Source of the DNA: Polynucleobacter meluiroseus
GTDB taxonomy: Bacteria; Pseudomonadota; Gammaproteobacteria; Burkholderiales; Burkholderiaceae
Reading direction: 5' to 3'
Assembly: GCA_945881875.1 (NCBI GenBank)
Contig: CAMCVH010000004.1
Span: 1 to 64,000, forward strand
DNA length: 64,000 bases
The translations under genes were made by a program, and so were the position numbers. Numbering within the stretch: the first letter of the stretch is position 1; the number at the start of each line of letters is the position of its first letter. The notes under the pieces were generated by a model. That model did not search any database and was not told where the DNA came from. It saw only the letters and a program-made list of their open reading frames with translations. Positions 3,846 through 51,785 of this stretch are shown here, in pieces.

Positions 3846-6506
<2,661 letters not shown>

Positions 6507-6534
6507 TTACATTTTTATTTTTTATTTTAGTTTT

Positions 6535-7353
6535 TTAGATCTTTAGGTTCTTGAGCCCTAAAACATCTTGCATATCAAATAGACCTGCTTTTTGATTTGC
6601 TAGAAAGCGTCCCGCTCTGACGGCGCCCTGAGCATAGGAAATGCGTGAAGCAGATTTATGAGTGACCTCAATACGCTCACCATCACCACAGAACATGACT
6701 GTGTGATCGCCCACGATATCGCCGCCTCGAATAGTCGCAAAACCAATCGTGCCATCTTCTCGCTCACCGGTATGACCCTCACGAGCATACACAGCACAAT
6801 CTTTTAGTTCTTTACCTAGAGCTTTAGCAATGACCTCACCCATCCCAATAGCTGTACCTGATGGCGCATCCACTTTATGCTTGTGATGCGCTTCAACGAT
6901 TTCAATATCGTAGCCTTGGTTCAAAATCTTTGCGGCCACTTCTAATAATTTAAATGTGGCATTAACACCTACGCTCATATTTGGCGCAAATACGATTGCC
7001 ACTTTTTCGCTAGCTTTCTTCAAGATAGCTTTTTGCTCATCTGTAAAACCAGTTGTACCGATGATCATTTTGGCGCCCATTTCTTGAGCAATAGCCAAGT
7101 GTGTCAAGGTACCTTCAGGTCTTGTGAAATCAATTAAGAAATCAGCATCCTTTAAACCTTCTTTGATATCAGCAGTAATTTTGATGCCTGTATCTTTACC
7201 TAAAAAATTAGCTGGGTCTTGACCAATTGCAGAACTACCGGCCATATCTAAAGCCCCCACTAATTTGGCATCAGGGGTATTTAAAATAGTTTCAATCAAC
7301 ATGCGGCCCATACGGCCTGATGCTCCTGCAACAGCAAATTTCAAAGTAGACAT
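6535..7353 (-). CDS. dapB: 4-hydroxy-tetrahydrodipicolinate reductase
   Basis: NAD(P)H-dependent reduction of hydroxy-tetrahydrodipicolinate in the lysine/diaminopimelate pathway. The 272 residues begin with the Rossmann motif [12 protein letters not shown], and the substrate-binding signature [15 protein letters not shown] is intact, including the His-His and Lys residues used in catalysis. It is 35 nt downstream of bamE and 37 nt upstream of leuS. Diaminopimelate made here is what murC/mpl-type enzymes use for the wall. Confidence 0.98.
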
Positions 7354-7388
7354 TATTTCTATCTCTATATTTTTAGTTATTTCTATTA

Positions 7389-7961
7389 TTAATTTCTGGT
7401 ATCGCCACGCGGAATACCAACACCCTGAGTTGGGTTAGGTATTGTTTGCACAGTCGGCGCCCTATGATCACTTTCTAAATCTTTGGTCACTGCTTTACGC
7501 TGTGGTCGGCGCTCACCTTTGATACCGTCAATCTCAGCAATGAGTTCATACTCAGTAGGCAGTGCATCTGCTTTGATTTGTTTAAGGAAATCTTTTTCAA
7601 AATACAAGGTCACCTGGCGCTGATCAACTAATTGAGTATCGCCACGCTTGAATGCAAAAACGTAATCCCATCGATTGGGATGCATCGCGCTATTCAATAA
7701 GGGTGTACCTAAGATAACTTTGATTTCTTCGCGGTCCATACCCACTTTGACGCGTTCAAGTTGCTCATTGGAAATAAAGTTTCCTTGAACCATATCCGGG
7801 CGATAAGGTTTAAAAACCTGACCGATTTTGCTTTTACTTCCCTCAGAAATGGTCGTCAGACCACTACAAGCAGTCAAGCTAGTGCCCAAGAGCGCTAATA
7901 CACTCCAAACTAAGCCCTTGAATACTGGGGTATTTCTTACGTTTTTTAAGCAGATTTGCAT
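7389..7961 (-). CDS. bamE: Outer membrane assembly lipoprotein BamE (SmpA/OmlA)
   Basis: Small lipoprotein subunit of the BAM complex that folds beta-barrel proteins into the outer membrane. From the ATG at 7961 it has a signal peptide ending in LTAC with Cys32 as the lipidated residue, then the SmpA/OmlA core ([34 protein letters not shown]...[12 protein letters not shown]). An upstream in-frame ATG (8045) would run into the divergent fur gene and add a non-signal-like extension, so I reject it. It is divergent from fur, an arrangement conserved in many proteobacteria, and heads the dapB-leuS-lptE-holA run. The tail after residue 140 is polar and variable. Confidence 0.93.
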
Positions 7962-47251: not shown

Positions 47252-48241
47252 ATGAGCACTAACTTACAAAACATTCTTAGCCCTATCTCTTCTGATATGA
47301 ACGCCTTAAACGACGTTATCAGGGCAAGTTTGCGCTCAGAGGTTGCTCTTATTAACCAAATTTCCTCTTACATAGTGGAAGCGGGTGGTAAAAGAATTCG
47401 TCCCGCGTTACTCCTCTTAACGTCGCAATCCATCGCTAATGGCAAAGAGTTAAAACACCAATTGGGCATGGCTACAGTTGTTGAATTTATACATACTGCG
47501 ACGCTGCTTCATGATGATGTTGTTGATGAGTCTAATTTGAGGCGTGGTCGTGCTACCGCCAACGCTGCATTTGGAAATGCTGCCAGTGTTCTAGTAGGTG
47601 ACTTTCTTTACTCTAGAGCTTTTCAAATGATGGTGGCACCTAATGAGCTGAAGATTATGGAAATCTTGGCAGAAGCTACCAACACGATTGCTGAAGGTGA
47701 AGTCCTACAGTTAATGAATATGCATGATTCTGATGTGAACGAAGCACGTTACATGCAAGTCATACACTTTAAAACTGGCAAGTTATTTGAAGCATCCTGC
47801 GCTCTGGGCGCTCTTTTAGCTAAAGCCTCAGAAGAGCAATACCAAGCTGCCCAAGCATATGGTCGCCATATTGGTACTGCTTTTCAGTTAATTGATGACA
47901 TCCTTGACTACACAGCAAGTGCTGAGCAAATGGGTAAAAATGCCGGGGATGATTTAAGAGAAGGTAAACCGACTCTCCCCTTAATTTATCTTTTAGACCA
48001 AGGTACGCCTGAGCAAAAGAAATTAGTTAAAAATGCCATTGATCAAGCAGAAGAATTACCTGATGATCTCTTTATGCAAGTTTATAAGGCTATCGTCGAT
48101 TCTAAAGCTATCACTTATACAGAGGCTGCTGCAAAACGTGAAGCTCAATTAGCTAAAAATTCTTTAGCATGTTTCCCTAAAAATGCCGCAACCCAAAGCT
48201 TGATGGATCTTTGCGATTACTCGCTCATTAGATCTACTTAA
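47252..48241 (+). CDS. ispB: Octaprenyl/polyprenyl diphosphate synthase
   Basis: Makes the isoprenoid side chain of ubiquinone. 329 residues, trans-prenyltransferase fold with the two aspartate-rich motifs DDVVDE (from residue 88) and QLIDDILDYTA, plus GGKRIRP near residue 46. Divergent from rplU, the usual beta-proteobacterial order. Confidence 0.95.
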   Translation: MSTNLQNILSPISSDMNALNDVIRASLRSEVALINQISSYIVEAGGKRIRPALLLLTSQSIANGKELKHQLGMATVVEFIHTATLLHDDVVDESNLRRGRATANAAFGNAASVLVGDFLYSRAFQMMVAPNELKIMEILAEATNTIAEGEVLQLMNMHDSDVNEARYMQVIHFKTGKLFEASCALGALLAKASEEQYQAAQAYGRHIGTAFQLIDDILDYTASAEQMGKNAGDDLREGKPTLPLIYLLDQGTPEQKKLVKNAIDQAEELPDDLFMQVYKAIVDSKAITYTEAAAKREAQLAKNSLACFPKNAATQSLMDLCDYSLIRST

Positions 48242-48368
48242 TTTCTCAGCAATAGCTTACTAGGTAAAACTTCATTGGTAAGTCTGCTTTCTATACTTTT
48301 TCATACAACTTCATAAGTATTTAGAAAGTCAATTATTCCATCGTTTCCCATTCAAAAGCTGAATGGTT

Positions 48369-48377
48369 TGCTATAGT
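48369..48377 (+). promoter_or_regulatory. Extended -10 promoter element before the CorC-type gene
   Basis: TG-C-TATAGT, an extended -10 element 33 nt before the start codon; no good -35, as is common for extended -10 promoters. Confidence 0.5.
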
Positions 48378-48409
48378 GACTCACATATCAATTGATCTAG
48401 AAAGTATTC

Positions 48410-49687
48410 ATGGATTCCTGGCTTAATAATTGGCCCTGGTGGACACAACTAGGCCTAGTTGTCTTACTCTTAGTTATATCTGCTTTTTTCTCGATCGCAG
48501 AAACTAGCATGATGGCGTCTAACCGCCACAGAATTAGACATCTTGCCAACAGAGGTAATAAAGGCGCCAAAAACACACAAGAATTGCTTGGTAAAACAGA
48601 ACAGCTTTTATCGGTCATTCTGATCGGCAATAACGTTGTCAATACTATTGTTCCCGTTTTACTAGCGGGAATCGCACTGCACGCTTTTGGTAATAATGGC
48701 TCTGTGCTATCAATTAGTACTGGTGTTGCAGCAATACTAATCATTATCTTTTGTGAAATCACACCTAAGGTCATTGGGGCGACCTACCCCGAGAGAATTG
48801 CTATGGCTGCGAGCTGGATTATTAAGCCGCTCATAATAATTCTTAAGCCAGCTATGTGGTTAATCAATTTATTTGTTTCTGGTTTATTAAAAATTTTTCG
48901 TATTGATACCGAAGCCAATAAAAATACCCAAATGAGTCCTGAAGAGTTACGCTCGGTAATTCTGGAGTCAACACATTTTATACCAAATAAGCATCGCAGT
49001 ATTTTGGTGAATTTATTTAACCTAGAAACTATTCAAGTCGATGATGTGATGACACCTCGAGCTCGCATGGAAGTTCTTGATTTCTCAAAATCAATTGAGG
49101 ATGTTATTCATCAACTAGAAACTTGCTATCACAATAAGTTACCTGTTTGCGGTGAAGACACAGATAAAGTCATTGGCATCTTAGCGGTGCGCAAAGCACT
49201 TAGCTTATTAGGCGATCAGAACTTAGAGCATCACCATTTCAAAGAGTTATTGAGTGAGCCCTACTTTATCCCTAGTGGCACACCTGTTCTGCAGCAACTG
49301 CAATTCTTCCAAGAAAATCAAGAACGAGTAGGTCTTGTTGTTGATGAATATGGTGTTTTACAAGGCTTAGTAACGATTGAAGATATTTTGGAAGAGCTGA
49401 TTGGTGAATTCACAACCTCACTTCCCGACTTATCTGTAAAAACTAAATGGTTACCTGATGGTACCTATTTAGCTGACGGTACTGCTAGTTTAAGAGACTT
49501 AAATCGCCTGCTCGGTTTAAGTCTACCAATTGATGGGCCAAAAACACTAAATGGTCTCCTTATCGAAACGCTTGAGGATATTCCCGACAATAACGTCAGC
49601 GTGAAGTTAGGTAAAGTGGTAATGGAAATCATTCAGGTGGATGAACAAATTATTAAGACTATTCGTATTTATAAGCCGAATGTCTGA
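48410..49687 (+). CDS. HlyC/CorC-family transporter (CNNM, CBS and CorC_HlyC domains)
   Basis: 425 residues: an N-terminal CNNM membrane domain with four helices (LGLVVLLLVISAFFSIAETSMMA; VILIGNNVVNTIVPVLLAGIAL), two CBS domains (DDVMTPRARMEVLDF; VVDEYGVLQGLVTIEDILEELIGE) and a C-terminal CorC_HlyC domain. Relatives are implicated in magnesium or cobalt export. Its TGA is followed in the same frame by a pilC remnant. Confidence 0.93.
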   Translation: MDSWLNNWPWWTQLGLVVLLLVISAFFSIAETSMMASNRHRIRHLANRGNKGAKNTQELLGKTEQLLSVILIGNNVVNTIVPVLLAGIALHAFGNNGSVLSISTGVAAILIIIFCEITPKVIGATYPERIAMAASWIIKPLIIILKPAMWLINLFVSGLLKIFRIDTEANKNTQMSPEELRSVILESTHFIPNKHRSILVNLFNLETIQVDDVMTPRARMEVLDFSKSIEDVIHQLETCYHNKLPVCGEDTDKVIGILAVRKALSLLGDQNLEHHHFKELLSEPYFIPSGTPVLQQLQFFQENQERVGLVVDEYGVLQGLVTIEDILEELIGEFTTSLPDLSVKTKWLPDGTYLADGTASLRDLNRLLGLSLPIDGPKTLNGLLIETLEDIPDNNVSVKLGKVVMEIIQVDEQIIKTIRIYKPNV

Positions 49688-49840
49688 AGAAGATGTAGTT
49701 GTAAATTTTGGGTAAAACAAAAAGAAGAAAAACTGGATCAACTAGTTGACCTATTAACGAAAAGCTTAGAACCCACTTTGATGTTATTGATGGGCATCTT
49801 CATTGGAAGCTTAGTTATTTCTCTATCTACTAATTTTTGA
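49688..49840 (+). pseudogene. pilC: Remnant of pilC (type IV pilus inner-membrane protein), 3' end only
   Basis: The frame after the CorC stop encodes KQKEEKLDQLVDLL followed by TKSLEPTLMLLMGIFIGSLV and a short end STNF, which matches the last ~40 residues of PilC/GspF: EEVD..VDNL...LEPxxMxxLGxxxGxLV. It has no start codon or ribosome-binding site of its own and all upstream pilC sequence is gone. Followed directly by a truncated pilD, as in the ancestral pilB-pilC-pilD-coaE order. Confidence 0.8.
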
Positions 49841-49855
49841 AATGGGACAAATTTT

Positions 49856-50326
49856 GTGATTGATTTATTTTTTGCTGGAATTTTAATTATCGTTCTGATA
49901 ATTTTGTCTTTGATCGACTTTAAAACGTTTCTACTTCCAGATTATTTAACTTTGCCTCTTTTGTTGCTTGGCTTAATTGGAAATGGCTTTGCTTGGATCG
50001 AGTGGACGAGTCCACTTGCCTCAGGGATTGGTGCTGCGATAGGATGGGGTTCTATTAACATTCTGAATCGGACCTATCGATACATTAAAGGTGTTGATGG
50101 TATTGGGATGGGAGATGCCAAACTTTTGGCAGCATTAGGGGCTTTTTTAGGTTGGGAGGCTTTACCTTTTATATTAATTATTGCCTCTTGCTCAGGCCTC
50201 GTAGGTGGCTTCATATGGCTTAAGATACATCAACAGGACCATACTCAAGCATTTCCGTTTGGTCCTTTTATTGCACTTGGTGGCATCATTACAGTTCTAT
50301 GGACTCTTTTCAAACCAATCATTTAA
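49856..50326 (+). CDS. pilD: Prepilin peptidase catalytic domain, truncated PilD
   Basis: 156 residues starting at GTG, covering only the aspartic-peptidase (A24) half of PilD, normally ~280 residues. The catalytic aspartates are present: Asp21 in LIDFKTFLLPD and Asp87 in GIGMGDAKLLAALGAFLGW. The N-terminal membrane segment and the cytoplasmic methyltransferase/zinc-finger part are missing. It follows the pilC remnant and overlaps coaE by 28 bp. It may still cleave prepilins or pseudopilins encoded elsewhere, or be on its way out; the weak start favours low expression. Confidence 0.85.
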   Translation: MIDLFFAGILIIVLIILSLIDFKTFLLPDYLTLPLLLLGLIGNGFAWIEWTSPLASGIGAAIGWGSINILNRTYRYIKGVDGIGMGDAKLLAALGAFLGWEALPFILIIASCSGLVGGFIWLKIHQQDHTQAFPFGPFIALGGIITVLWTLFKPII

Positions 50327-50979
50327 AACATCCTTCTGTAATAGATGGGGATAAGCCTATATTGCGTGTTGGTCTGACAGGCGGAATTGGAAGTGGTAAA
50401 TCTGAGGTTGCTAATTTTCTTGGAAAACTCGGCGCAGCGATTATTGATACAGATGCTATTTCTCATCAAATCACTGCTAGCTCAGGATTAGCAATTCCAG
50501 CTATACGACAACAATTTGGAGAGAAGATGATTGCTCCAGATGGCTCATTAGACAGACACAAGATGAGAACACTCATTTTTGATAATCCATCATCCAAGTT
50601 AGCCCTTGAGAACATCACTCATCCACTGATACGCAAAATAACCGAAGATCACGCCAGTGCGGCATTGCAACAAAATCCGCCATATATTGTCTTTGTTGTT
50701 CCATTGCTTCTTGAATCAGGAAATTGGTTGGGTCAAACACCCAAAAAAATTGACTATGTTGTGGTGGTAGATAGTACCGAGGATCAACAACTATTAAGGG
50801 TTCAAAGTAGATCGAACATGGATCCACTTTCCATAGAAAAAATCATAGCAACCCAAGCAAAACGTGAAGAGAGGTTAGCAGCTGCTGATTACATTATTAA
50901 AAATGATGAAAGCTTAGCTGAATTGGAAAAAAAGACAGCTCAACTTCACGAATCGCTAGTACACCGCAAAAACCTGTAA
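50299..50979 (+). CDS. coaE: Dephospho-CoA kinase
   Basis: Last step of coenzyme A synthesis. 226 residues with P-loop GLTGGIGSGKSEVANFL, DTDAISHQI and VVPLLLESG...VVVDSTEDQQLLRVQSR. The N-terminus extends ~22 residues before the P-loop; the start overlaps pilD. Order pilD-coaE-zapD is the conserved one. Confidence 0.97.
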   Translation: MDSFQTNHLKHPSVIDGDKPILRVGLTGGIGSGKSEVANFLGKLGAAIIDTDAISHQITASSGLAIPAIRQQFGEKMIAPDGSLDRHKMRTLIFDNPSSKLALENITHPLIRKITEDHASAALQQNPPYIVFVVPLLLESGNWLGQTPKKIDYVVVVDSTEDQQLLRVQSRSNMDPLSIEKIIATQAKREERLAAADYIIKNDESLAELEKKTAQLHESLVHRKNL

Positions 50980-51032: not shown

Positions 51033-51785
51033 GTGATTACTTATGAATATCCTTTCAATGAGCTAGTTCGAAGCTTACTTCGACTAGAGTACCTCTTTGA
51101 TCGGTTCAACTACTATGTTGAAAAGGATGATGCTAGAGACATGCATCAAGCAATTTCTATAATTTTTGATTTAGGTGAAATAACGGCAAGAGCCGATCTC
51201 AAATCAAGCTTGATGAAAGAACTTGATCGCCAACAAAATAGCCTTGAATCACTAAAGAATCAAAACGGTGTTGATCAAAGTATTCTTGACCGCACCATTC
51301 ATGAAATGAATGTTATCTGGAGCAAGATTAATAGCACTATTGGTAAACCTAACGCTTTAATTACTGATAGTGATTGGCTCAATGCGGTACGTACTCGTTT
51401 GAGTGTTCCAGGTGGAACAAGTCCAATAGATTTACCTTCTTATCATGCATGGCAATTTATCTCTGCTACAACTAGAAGGGCTTCCCTTAAATCATATATT
51501 GCACCCCTTCTACCGTGGAGTGAAGCCAGTCATATATTTTTACGTTTACTCAGAGAGTCATGCCAGGAAAATACTATGATGGCTCCTAACGGTGCCTATC
51601 AACAAATGCTTTCTGGTAAGACTTATCAGTTAATGCGAATTCATGTAGAAAATCCAAGCATCATTCCAGAAATCAGTGCCAATAAATACATGCTTTGGGT
51701 ACGATTCATGGAGTGTGATGGCGTCAGTAAACCGAAATCTCTAGCCAAAGATCATGAATTTAAAATGTCATTGTGTAATTTTTAA
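51033..51785 (+). CDS. zapD: Cell division protein ZapD
   Basis: Cross-links FtsZ filaments at the division ring. 250 residues beginning at GTG, with YEYPFNELVRSLLRLEYLFDRF typical of ZapD and a C-terminal beta domain (GAYQQMLSGKTYQLMRIHVE). Its end overlaps the convergent mutT by 26 bp. Confidence 0.95.
   Translation: MITYEYPFNELVRSLLRLEYLFDRFNYYVEKDDARDMHQAISIIFDLGEITARADLKSSLMKELDRQQNSLESLKNQNGVDQSILDRTIHEMNVIWSKINSTIGKPNALITDSDWLNAVRTRLSVPGGTSPIDLPSYHAWQFISATTRRASLKSYIAPLLPWSEASHIFLRLLRESCQENTMMAPNGAYQQMLSGKTYQLMRIHVENPSIIPEISANKYMLWVRFMECDGVSKPKSLAKDHEFKMSLCNF

Follow-up and report, generated by a model that had tools for sequence, protein, structure and literature searches.

A locus in the genome of a freshwater Polynucleobacter raises the question of what became of its type IV pilus genes, and why the prepilin peptidase gene pilD is still open there when its neighbors pilB and pilC are reduced to fragments. 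The window, meaning the whole stretch of 64,000 bp that was analyzed, is C4:1-64000 of its own genome, a draft of 1,527,845 bases in 7 contigs that is 97.01% complete (G000; G-numbers denote genomes and L-numbers loci). We consider it likely that a competence-type IV pilus has been lost from this bacterium, with natural transformation very probably gone too, and that PilD has outlived the motor.

The scar between corC and pilD

The closest relative found, a metagenome-assembled genome named Polynucleobacter meluiroseus (locus L033), encodes a PilD 83% identical to that of the window and was used as the sister. Its locus has the unbroken order corC-pilB-pilC-pilD-coaE-zapD, with products of 364, 334, and 156 amino acids (aa) for PilB, PilC, and PilD, and G065 has identical PilB and PilC proteins. 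The window keeps the sister order, but pilB is cut to 11 codons and pilC to a short tail, and pilD is open. Compared with L033, 1,914 bp are missing (5938 to 7852), from about pilB codon 13 to near the end of pilC. The features of the locus are as follows.

48410..49687, + strand: corC/hlyC-like CNNM-CBS gene, 425 aa; upstream neighbor, same arrangement in L033
49680..49715, + strand: pilB 5' remnant of 11 codons (49680-49712), then TAA; from alignment to L033
49715..49719, + strand: deletion junction, 5 bp AAACA common to both breakpoints, where two L033 alignments overlap
49715..49859, + strand: pilC 3' remnant, no start, frame broken; from alignment to L033, profiles weak
49856..50326, + strand: pilD, peptidase-only A24 prepilin peptidase, 156 aa, GTG start; PF01478, Asp 21 and 87
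50299..50979, + strand: coaE, 226 aa, 28-nt overlap with the end of pilD; name from the sequence-only reading and synteny
51033..51785, + strand: zapD, 250 aa; name from the sequence-only reading and synteny

Gene names given without a family search (coaE, zapD, tatD, pyrG, mrcA, etc.) come from an earlier sequence-only reading of this DNA or from synteny, and pilW, pilX, and pilV are labels given by position. That reading had described a start-less pilC tail followed by a 156-residue A24 PilD with both catalytic aspartates, coaE, and zapD, which is what the locus contains. Its proposal that pilB and most of pilC were deleted is borne out by the alignment to intact L033, which places the deletion to the base.

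The corC stop overlaps the former pilB start (ATGTCTGA), and pilB codon 12 is TAA in the window and CAA in the sister. A 2-bp deletion interrupts the pilC tail at 49823/49824, with the first stop at 49839-49841 and the old stop at 49857-49859. The tail is unmistakable when aligned to intact L033, though weak by profile (PF00482, E = 0.016, under the cut-off; HofC, E = 1.5e-5, far under its cut-off). The stop and the 2-bp deletion probably arose after the large deletion, and the short sequences common to the breakpoints suggest illegitimate recombination. Searching the window DNA against 186 genomes of the genus produced matches in 27, its own among them, and among the matches listed the junction is spanned in no other genome.

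Upstream, the two loci differ in another respect: a TonB-dependent-receptor-like gene (by sequence; L033:2194-4377) stands right before corC in the sister and is missing from the window, where a polyprenyl synthase gene is followed directly by corC (48241-48410).

The pilus motor and the DNA channel

In pilin polymerization PilB supplies the power and PilC the anchor, and ComEC passes DNA across the inner membrane. A PF00437 search of the window's own genome for an assembly ATPase gave nothing over the cut-off, the two weak matches being ClpX and an HrpA-type helicase by sequence. A PF00482 search of the same genome for a platform protein gave no match at E<=0.001, and only the pilC tail in the window is left. 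In 14 control genomes the PF00437 search was positive in all 14 and the PF00482 search in 13. Since PF00437 over the cut-off and PF00482 are both missing from the genome, pilus assembly has very probably been lost, in agreement with the suggestion of the sequence-only reading that type IV pili of this kind are gone.

The genome retains PilQ (369 aa, TIGR02515 over the cut-off, HofQ also matched), PilA (164 aa, PF00114 and PF07963), and three N_methyl matches over the cut-off, of which the two beyond PilA sit in a minor-pilin-like cluster. Both the secretin and the prepilins of a type IV pilus system are thus still encoded, and a genome-wide search for pil genes recovers pilA, pilQ, and prepilins and neither pilB nor pilC. 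Retained proteins are equal or nearly equal in length to those of the sister with two exceptions, a GspH-like protein (224 vs. 196 aa) and an open reading frame (ORF) beside pilQ (172 vs. 181 aa), where the difference perhaps reflects the choice of start. The latter, a single ORF (L075:10583-11101; 181 aa in G065), fills the interval from mrcA to pilQ, the expected place of pilMNOP, and has no Pfam match.

The pilus set of the genus as a whole is compact and has no recognized retraction motor. In the single-contig genomes G010 and G016, for example, the one PF00437 match of each is pilB beside pilC, which leaves none for a PilT retraction ATPase. PilB is short (L033:5903-6997, 364 aa), its best stretch aligning from position 176 of TIGR02538 (564), and PilC (L033:6994-7998) begins at about position 60 of HofC (401). 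The set resembles compact competence pilus sets (HofB/HofC/HofQ and ComGA/ComGB, by their NCBIfam names) in that the sister PilC is nearest HofC and the sister PilB aligns with both type IV-A PilB and ComGA. It differs from them in that no PilB or PilC match passes its NCBIfam cut-off and PilD is without the methyltransferase half, and from TIGR02538 in that PilB is without the first ~175 positions.

A second gap affects DNA uptake. PF03772 finds ComEC in G065, G005, and G165 and has no match in G000. There tatD (ending at L172 9912) is followed after 108 bp by pyrG (10021), whereas G065 has a comEC of 853 aa at this position, with TIGR00361 over the cut-off. The gap in G000 amounts to 2,606 bp, with 3 bp common to the breakpoints, maybe by chance. 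Judged from these alignments, two unlinked deletions took the pilus motor and the DNA channel, and natural transformation has probably been lost because comEC is deleted, given the known roles of these proteins. Among 21 genomes compared, ComEC is present in 7/7 with intact pilB and pilC. A clade of six genomes (G070, G102, G138, G150, G173, and G174) has a ComEC match in all six, that of G173 in two pieces. Of the eight genomes outside this clade with deleted or broken pilBC, none has a full match: seven have none, and G126 has a 50-position piece that is itself over the cut-off. Single ComEC absences in G118, G145, and G152 are less safe, these genomes being only 84-91% complete.

A short PilD apparently kept under constraint

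The window PilD passes the curated cut-off of PF01478 (77.6 bits vs. 26.5; E = 1.1e-21). D21 and GxGD87 (GIGMGDAKLL in the window) are present in 47/47 aligned A24 sequences, the window's included; two catalytic aspartates with the second in GxGD constitute what we take to be the A24 motif. Bifunctional PilD carries an N-terminal methyltransferase domain and totals about 280-300 aa. The window protein is not of this type, with 156 aa and no second Pfam family over the cut-off, and the sequence-only reading had attributed the missing half, as a probable effect, to the deletion. This does not hold: the methyltransferase half is also missing from the sister's PilD, whose operon is intact and whose pilD has the same 156 codons. 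Open frames of <=202 aa hold the best match in 33/36 congeners, the other three being G002 and G023, with frames of 298 and 302 aa, and G006, with a broken gene. In other families, 23/24 genomes match, 22 of the 23 in frames of >=283 aa. Because the sister has the same 156 codons and congeners share the short frames, the short PilD is older than the window deletion, and by this comparison the methyltransferase-less form is a trait of the genus that predates motor loss. An AlphaFold model of PilD (from an alignment of only 3 sequences) reached a pLDDT of 49.6 and shows six helices only, and a PDB sequence search with PilD returned one spurious match only (E 0.69). Stand-alone A24 peptidases of ~150-156 aa (GQGDAKLL), with no pil genes seen adjoining, occur at L087:7824-8279, L089:7924-8394, and L090:6526-6984 in three large-genome congeners without PF00437 over the cut-off and without local pilBCD.

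Across the genus, PF00437 is over the cut-off in 142/151 genomes and PF01478 in 148/151, the three misses being 66, 78, and 81% complete. All nine genomes without PF00437 over the cut-off have PF01478 (G000, G102, G108, G118, G145, G150, G152, G173, and G174). We read 43 loci, having left out L049 and L051, which are cut by contig ends, and L093, which was unneeded; the loci were partly picked for their unusual look, so locus counts are not frequencies. Full or near-full pilB, pilC, and pilD matches were found at 21 of them. Eight retain pilD, with pilB gone and pilC wholly or mostly gone (G000, the second G029 locus, G102, G108, G118, G138, G145, and G152). Four have lost pilB, pilC, and pilD (G070, G150, G173, and G174), each with an A24 gene elsewhere, in G070 near prepilins and another PF00437 gene. 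Broken copies stand at six (G006, G017, G023, G078, G126, and G129), pilD being open in G017 and G126 all the same. The remaining four have pilB and pilC but no in-locus pilD: G002, G092, and G164 have a long PilD elsewhere, and none was detected in G076, which is 78% complete.

On a locus tree built from corC, coaE, and zapD, pilBC deletions fall in at least six places: G000, the second G029 locus, the six-genome clade (support 0.998), G108/G118 (one or two events), G145, and G152. The scars differ. G102 and G138 have no pil remnant, and their pilD start abuts or overlaps the corC stop; at the second G029 locus an in-frame ATG overlaps it. The pilC tails are very short in G118 and G145 (by eye) and of ~70 residues in G108 and G152. 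We did not adopt a deletion shared by G145 and G152, since both pilB and pilC are undamaged in G164, the sister of G145 (support 0.952), and the two scars differ. Loss of pilBC, as read from the tree and the scars, thus recurs in the genus. Bin G029 contains two corC-pilD loci, one with pilBC deleted and one intact (contigs C92 and C114; L042 and L039), apparently from related species; tree distance favors a mixed bin over strain polymorphism.

The codons of the retained and the broken genes have evolved differently. In a model whose branch lengths were tied to ten control genes totaling 3,248 codons, pilD shows an omega (dN/dS) of 0.173 for G000 and 0.200 for the sister. For the 53 codons of the remnants the values are 0.44-0.68 in G000, 0.001 in the sister, and 0.02-0.03 in G005, and equal remnant omega in G000 and sister is rejected (twice the log-likelihood difference, 2dlnL, about 18.5). 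If f is the share of the G000 branch taken as neutral, the remnants fit an f of about 0.4-0.7, and f = 0.2 is worse by 3.1 to 9.8 depending on scale. For the retained genes f = 0.3 is already worse by 8.4 (pilD), 30.0 (pilQ), 11.1 (pilA), 9.7 (pilW), 12.7 (pilX), and 3.9 (fimT), and costs 2.3 for pilP and 0.8 for pilV; pilP, fimT, and pilV were classed as undecided or relaxed. Forcing the remnants and pilD to have the same f costs at least 7.8 (summed grid values, free scale). With lengths tied in this way, the remnants lost constraint on the G000 lineage; pilD, pilQ, pilA, and two minor-pilin genes did not. These fits suggest that constraint on pilD and on much of the retained set persisted after motor loss. 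coaE was left out of the tied-length comparison, the G005 locus used having no coaE ortholog. A three-taxon model with free lengths is uninformative for pilD because synonymous sites are saturated in the outgroup, runs with G165 in that role hitting parameter bounds.

In a genus-wide fit (31 taxa, 146 codons), the foreground comprised the G102-G138 ancestor and ten tips whose pilBC is deleted or broken; pilD omega is 0.131 there and 0.121 in the background. The fit rejects omega = 1 for this foreground by 232; its comparison with a single ratio, whose null was fitted for 45 iterations, is rough. Of single lineages, G000 (0.99) and G126 (0.70) do not reject omega = 1, and the others tested do, by 4.4 to 67.4. 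The strongest rejection, 67.4, is that of the G102-G138 group (omega 0.073), which by parsimony lost pilBC before its split. As terminal branches include time before the loss, only this group and the remnant comparison address the time after it.

Why the peptidase outlives the motor

The reading that we consider likely runs as follows. One deletion took most of pilC and all of pilB past about codon 12, and a second, unlinked one took comEC whole from its place between tatD and pyrG; searches of the 97%-complete assembly turned up neither another assembly ATPase nor another platform protein or ComEC. Without PilB, PilC, and ComEC, no pilus would be built and no DNA would cross the inner membrane. 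Prepilins would still be made, and unprocessed ones may burden the Sec translocon; loss of the peptidase might then cost more than loss of the motor, which could be why PilD is kept, although these last two steps are less certain than those before. PilD does have candidate substrates of the usual kind, since the genome keeps its own prepilins and PilQ.

Several observations weigh against this account. The six-genome clade is without in-locus pilBC and yet has ComEC, so the two losses are not always coupled. G102, G118, and G174, without PF00437 over the cut-off and without N_methyl even at E<=3, keep an A24 peptidase, and in G076 (78% complete) pilB, pilC, and prepilins are present and an A24 match is missing; with peptidase lacking prepilins in the former and the reverse in the latter, a prepilin burden does not account for these four. 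Between window and sister, pilD differs at 76/468 sites (16.2%) and the remnants at 28/180, with a similar third-position share. Selection on pilD, which appears as constraint with tied branch lengths, does not reject omega = 1 on G000 once lengths are free (2dlnL 1.88; 0.99), and with a free scale the remnants are still compatible with a neutral share of 0.2 (3.1). pilV, with an omega of 0.65, looks relaxed in G000.

It is possible, though we hold it only tentatively, that PilD, together with PilQ and the pilins, has a selected function needing neither the PilB-PilC motor nor ComEC, such as a short secretin-linked pseudopilus or the processing of other membrane proteins, in which case motor loss would be specialization rather than decay. 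The methyltransferase-less PilD might then function with neither ComEC nor any type IV filament motor, persisting with its catalytic residues and under purifying selection in several lineages whose pilB and pilC were lost independently, some of them without a recognizable prepilin, a proposition to which we give the same limited credence. An A24 peptidase in 9/9 genomes without PF00437 over the cut-off speaks for such a role, as do the low pilD omega on lineages with lost or broken pilBC (0.131) and in the G102-G138 group (0.073) and the continued constraint on pilQ, pilA, pilW, and pilX in G000. So does the position of pilD in G102 and G138, where its start meets the corC stop, and at the second G029 locus, where an in-frame ATG overlaps that stop; pilD expression may have been kept at these loci by this proximity. 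Against it, terminal branches include time before the loss and G000 and G126 singly do not reject neutrality, G138 carries another PF00437 gene (2.1e-68), and four genomes have lost the in-locus pilD, though with an A24 gene elsewhere. We know of no substrate or partner for a motor-free PilD. The sequence-only reading had likewise supposed that the peptidase may be kept for another substrate. This is not strictly needed, as the genome's own prepilins and PilQ remain; it gains from the motor-less congeners in which no prepilin is detected.

That decay is simply ongoing, the deletion being fairly recent and pilD, the pilins, and pilQ relics that will go next, seems unlikely. Divergence from the sister is as large for pilD as for the remnants, pilV shows relaxation, and in relatives decay does reach pilD, G006 having a pilB stop and a broken pilD and G129 broken pilB, pilC, and pilD. 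But a neutral share of ~0.4-0.7 fits the remnants and not pilD, pilQ, pilX, or pilA, and the 156 pilD codons hold no disabling change against two in ~180 nt of remnant. Much less probable still is that pilD is kept solely for the translation of coaE, whose start lies within it: the 28-nt overlap has counterparts in relatives, but in four genomes coaE directly follows corC without pilD, while a further set, G002, G092, G164, and G076, has coaE without an in-locus pilD, and overlap alone would not preserve catalytic residues. The corC-coaE loci largely refute this idea. An assembly artefact joining two places, which a draft in 7 contigs might invite, is the least probable of all. Intact genes in relatives together with signs of misassembly here would, by the sequence-only reading, have refuted the deletion. 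Relatives do have the intact genes, but misassembly is unlikely, as a nonsense codon and a frameshift lie in the remnants and their codon evolution is relaxed. AAACA is, moreover, common to both breakpoints, and similar but different scars occur in other genomes.

Loss of a competence pilus with natural transformation probably gone, the reading we prefer, has a precedent in the Pasteurellaceae, where competence is often lost and most of pilB is deleted in one species (PMC1626085). The two cases are alike in that competence genes go by deletion or stops and other pil genes stay. They differ in that here pilB and pilC go together and comEC by a second deletion, in that pilD outlasts the motor in several lineages of the genus, and in that codon rates of remnant and retained genes are comparable here. 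In Synechocystis, a pilD mutant is reported to have impaired Sec translocons, which is blamed on non-glycosylated prepilin (PMC8546353; also PMC4390875). By analogy, such harm would explain why the peptidase is harder to lose than the motor. A literature search by title and start of abstract, with most subscription journals outside its coverage, gave no account of pilus or competence loss in Polynucleobacter and nothing on an orphan prepilin peptidase. The phenomenon is known in outline; what is unusual is the survival of the peptidase beyond the motor in several lineages, together with the seeming constraint on the retained parts.

Seen across the genus, one scar becomes a natural experiment in which the motor was lost several times and the peptidase nearly always kept, and it corrects the view of the short PilD as a damaged gene. 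It makes testable why streamlined freshwater bacteria lose competence and whether prepilin peptidases are useful without a pilus. The recurrence in related species suggests that the peptidase is worth keeping without the motor.
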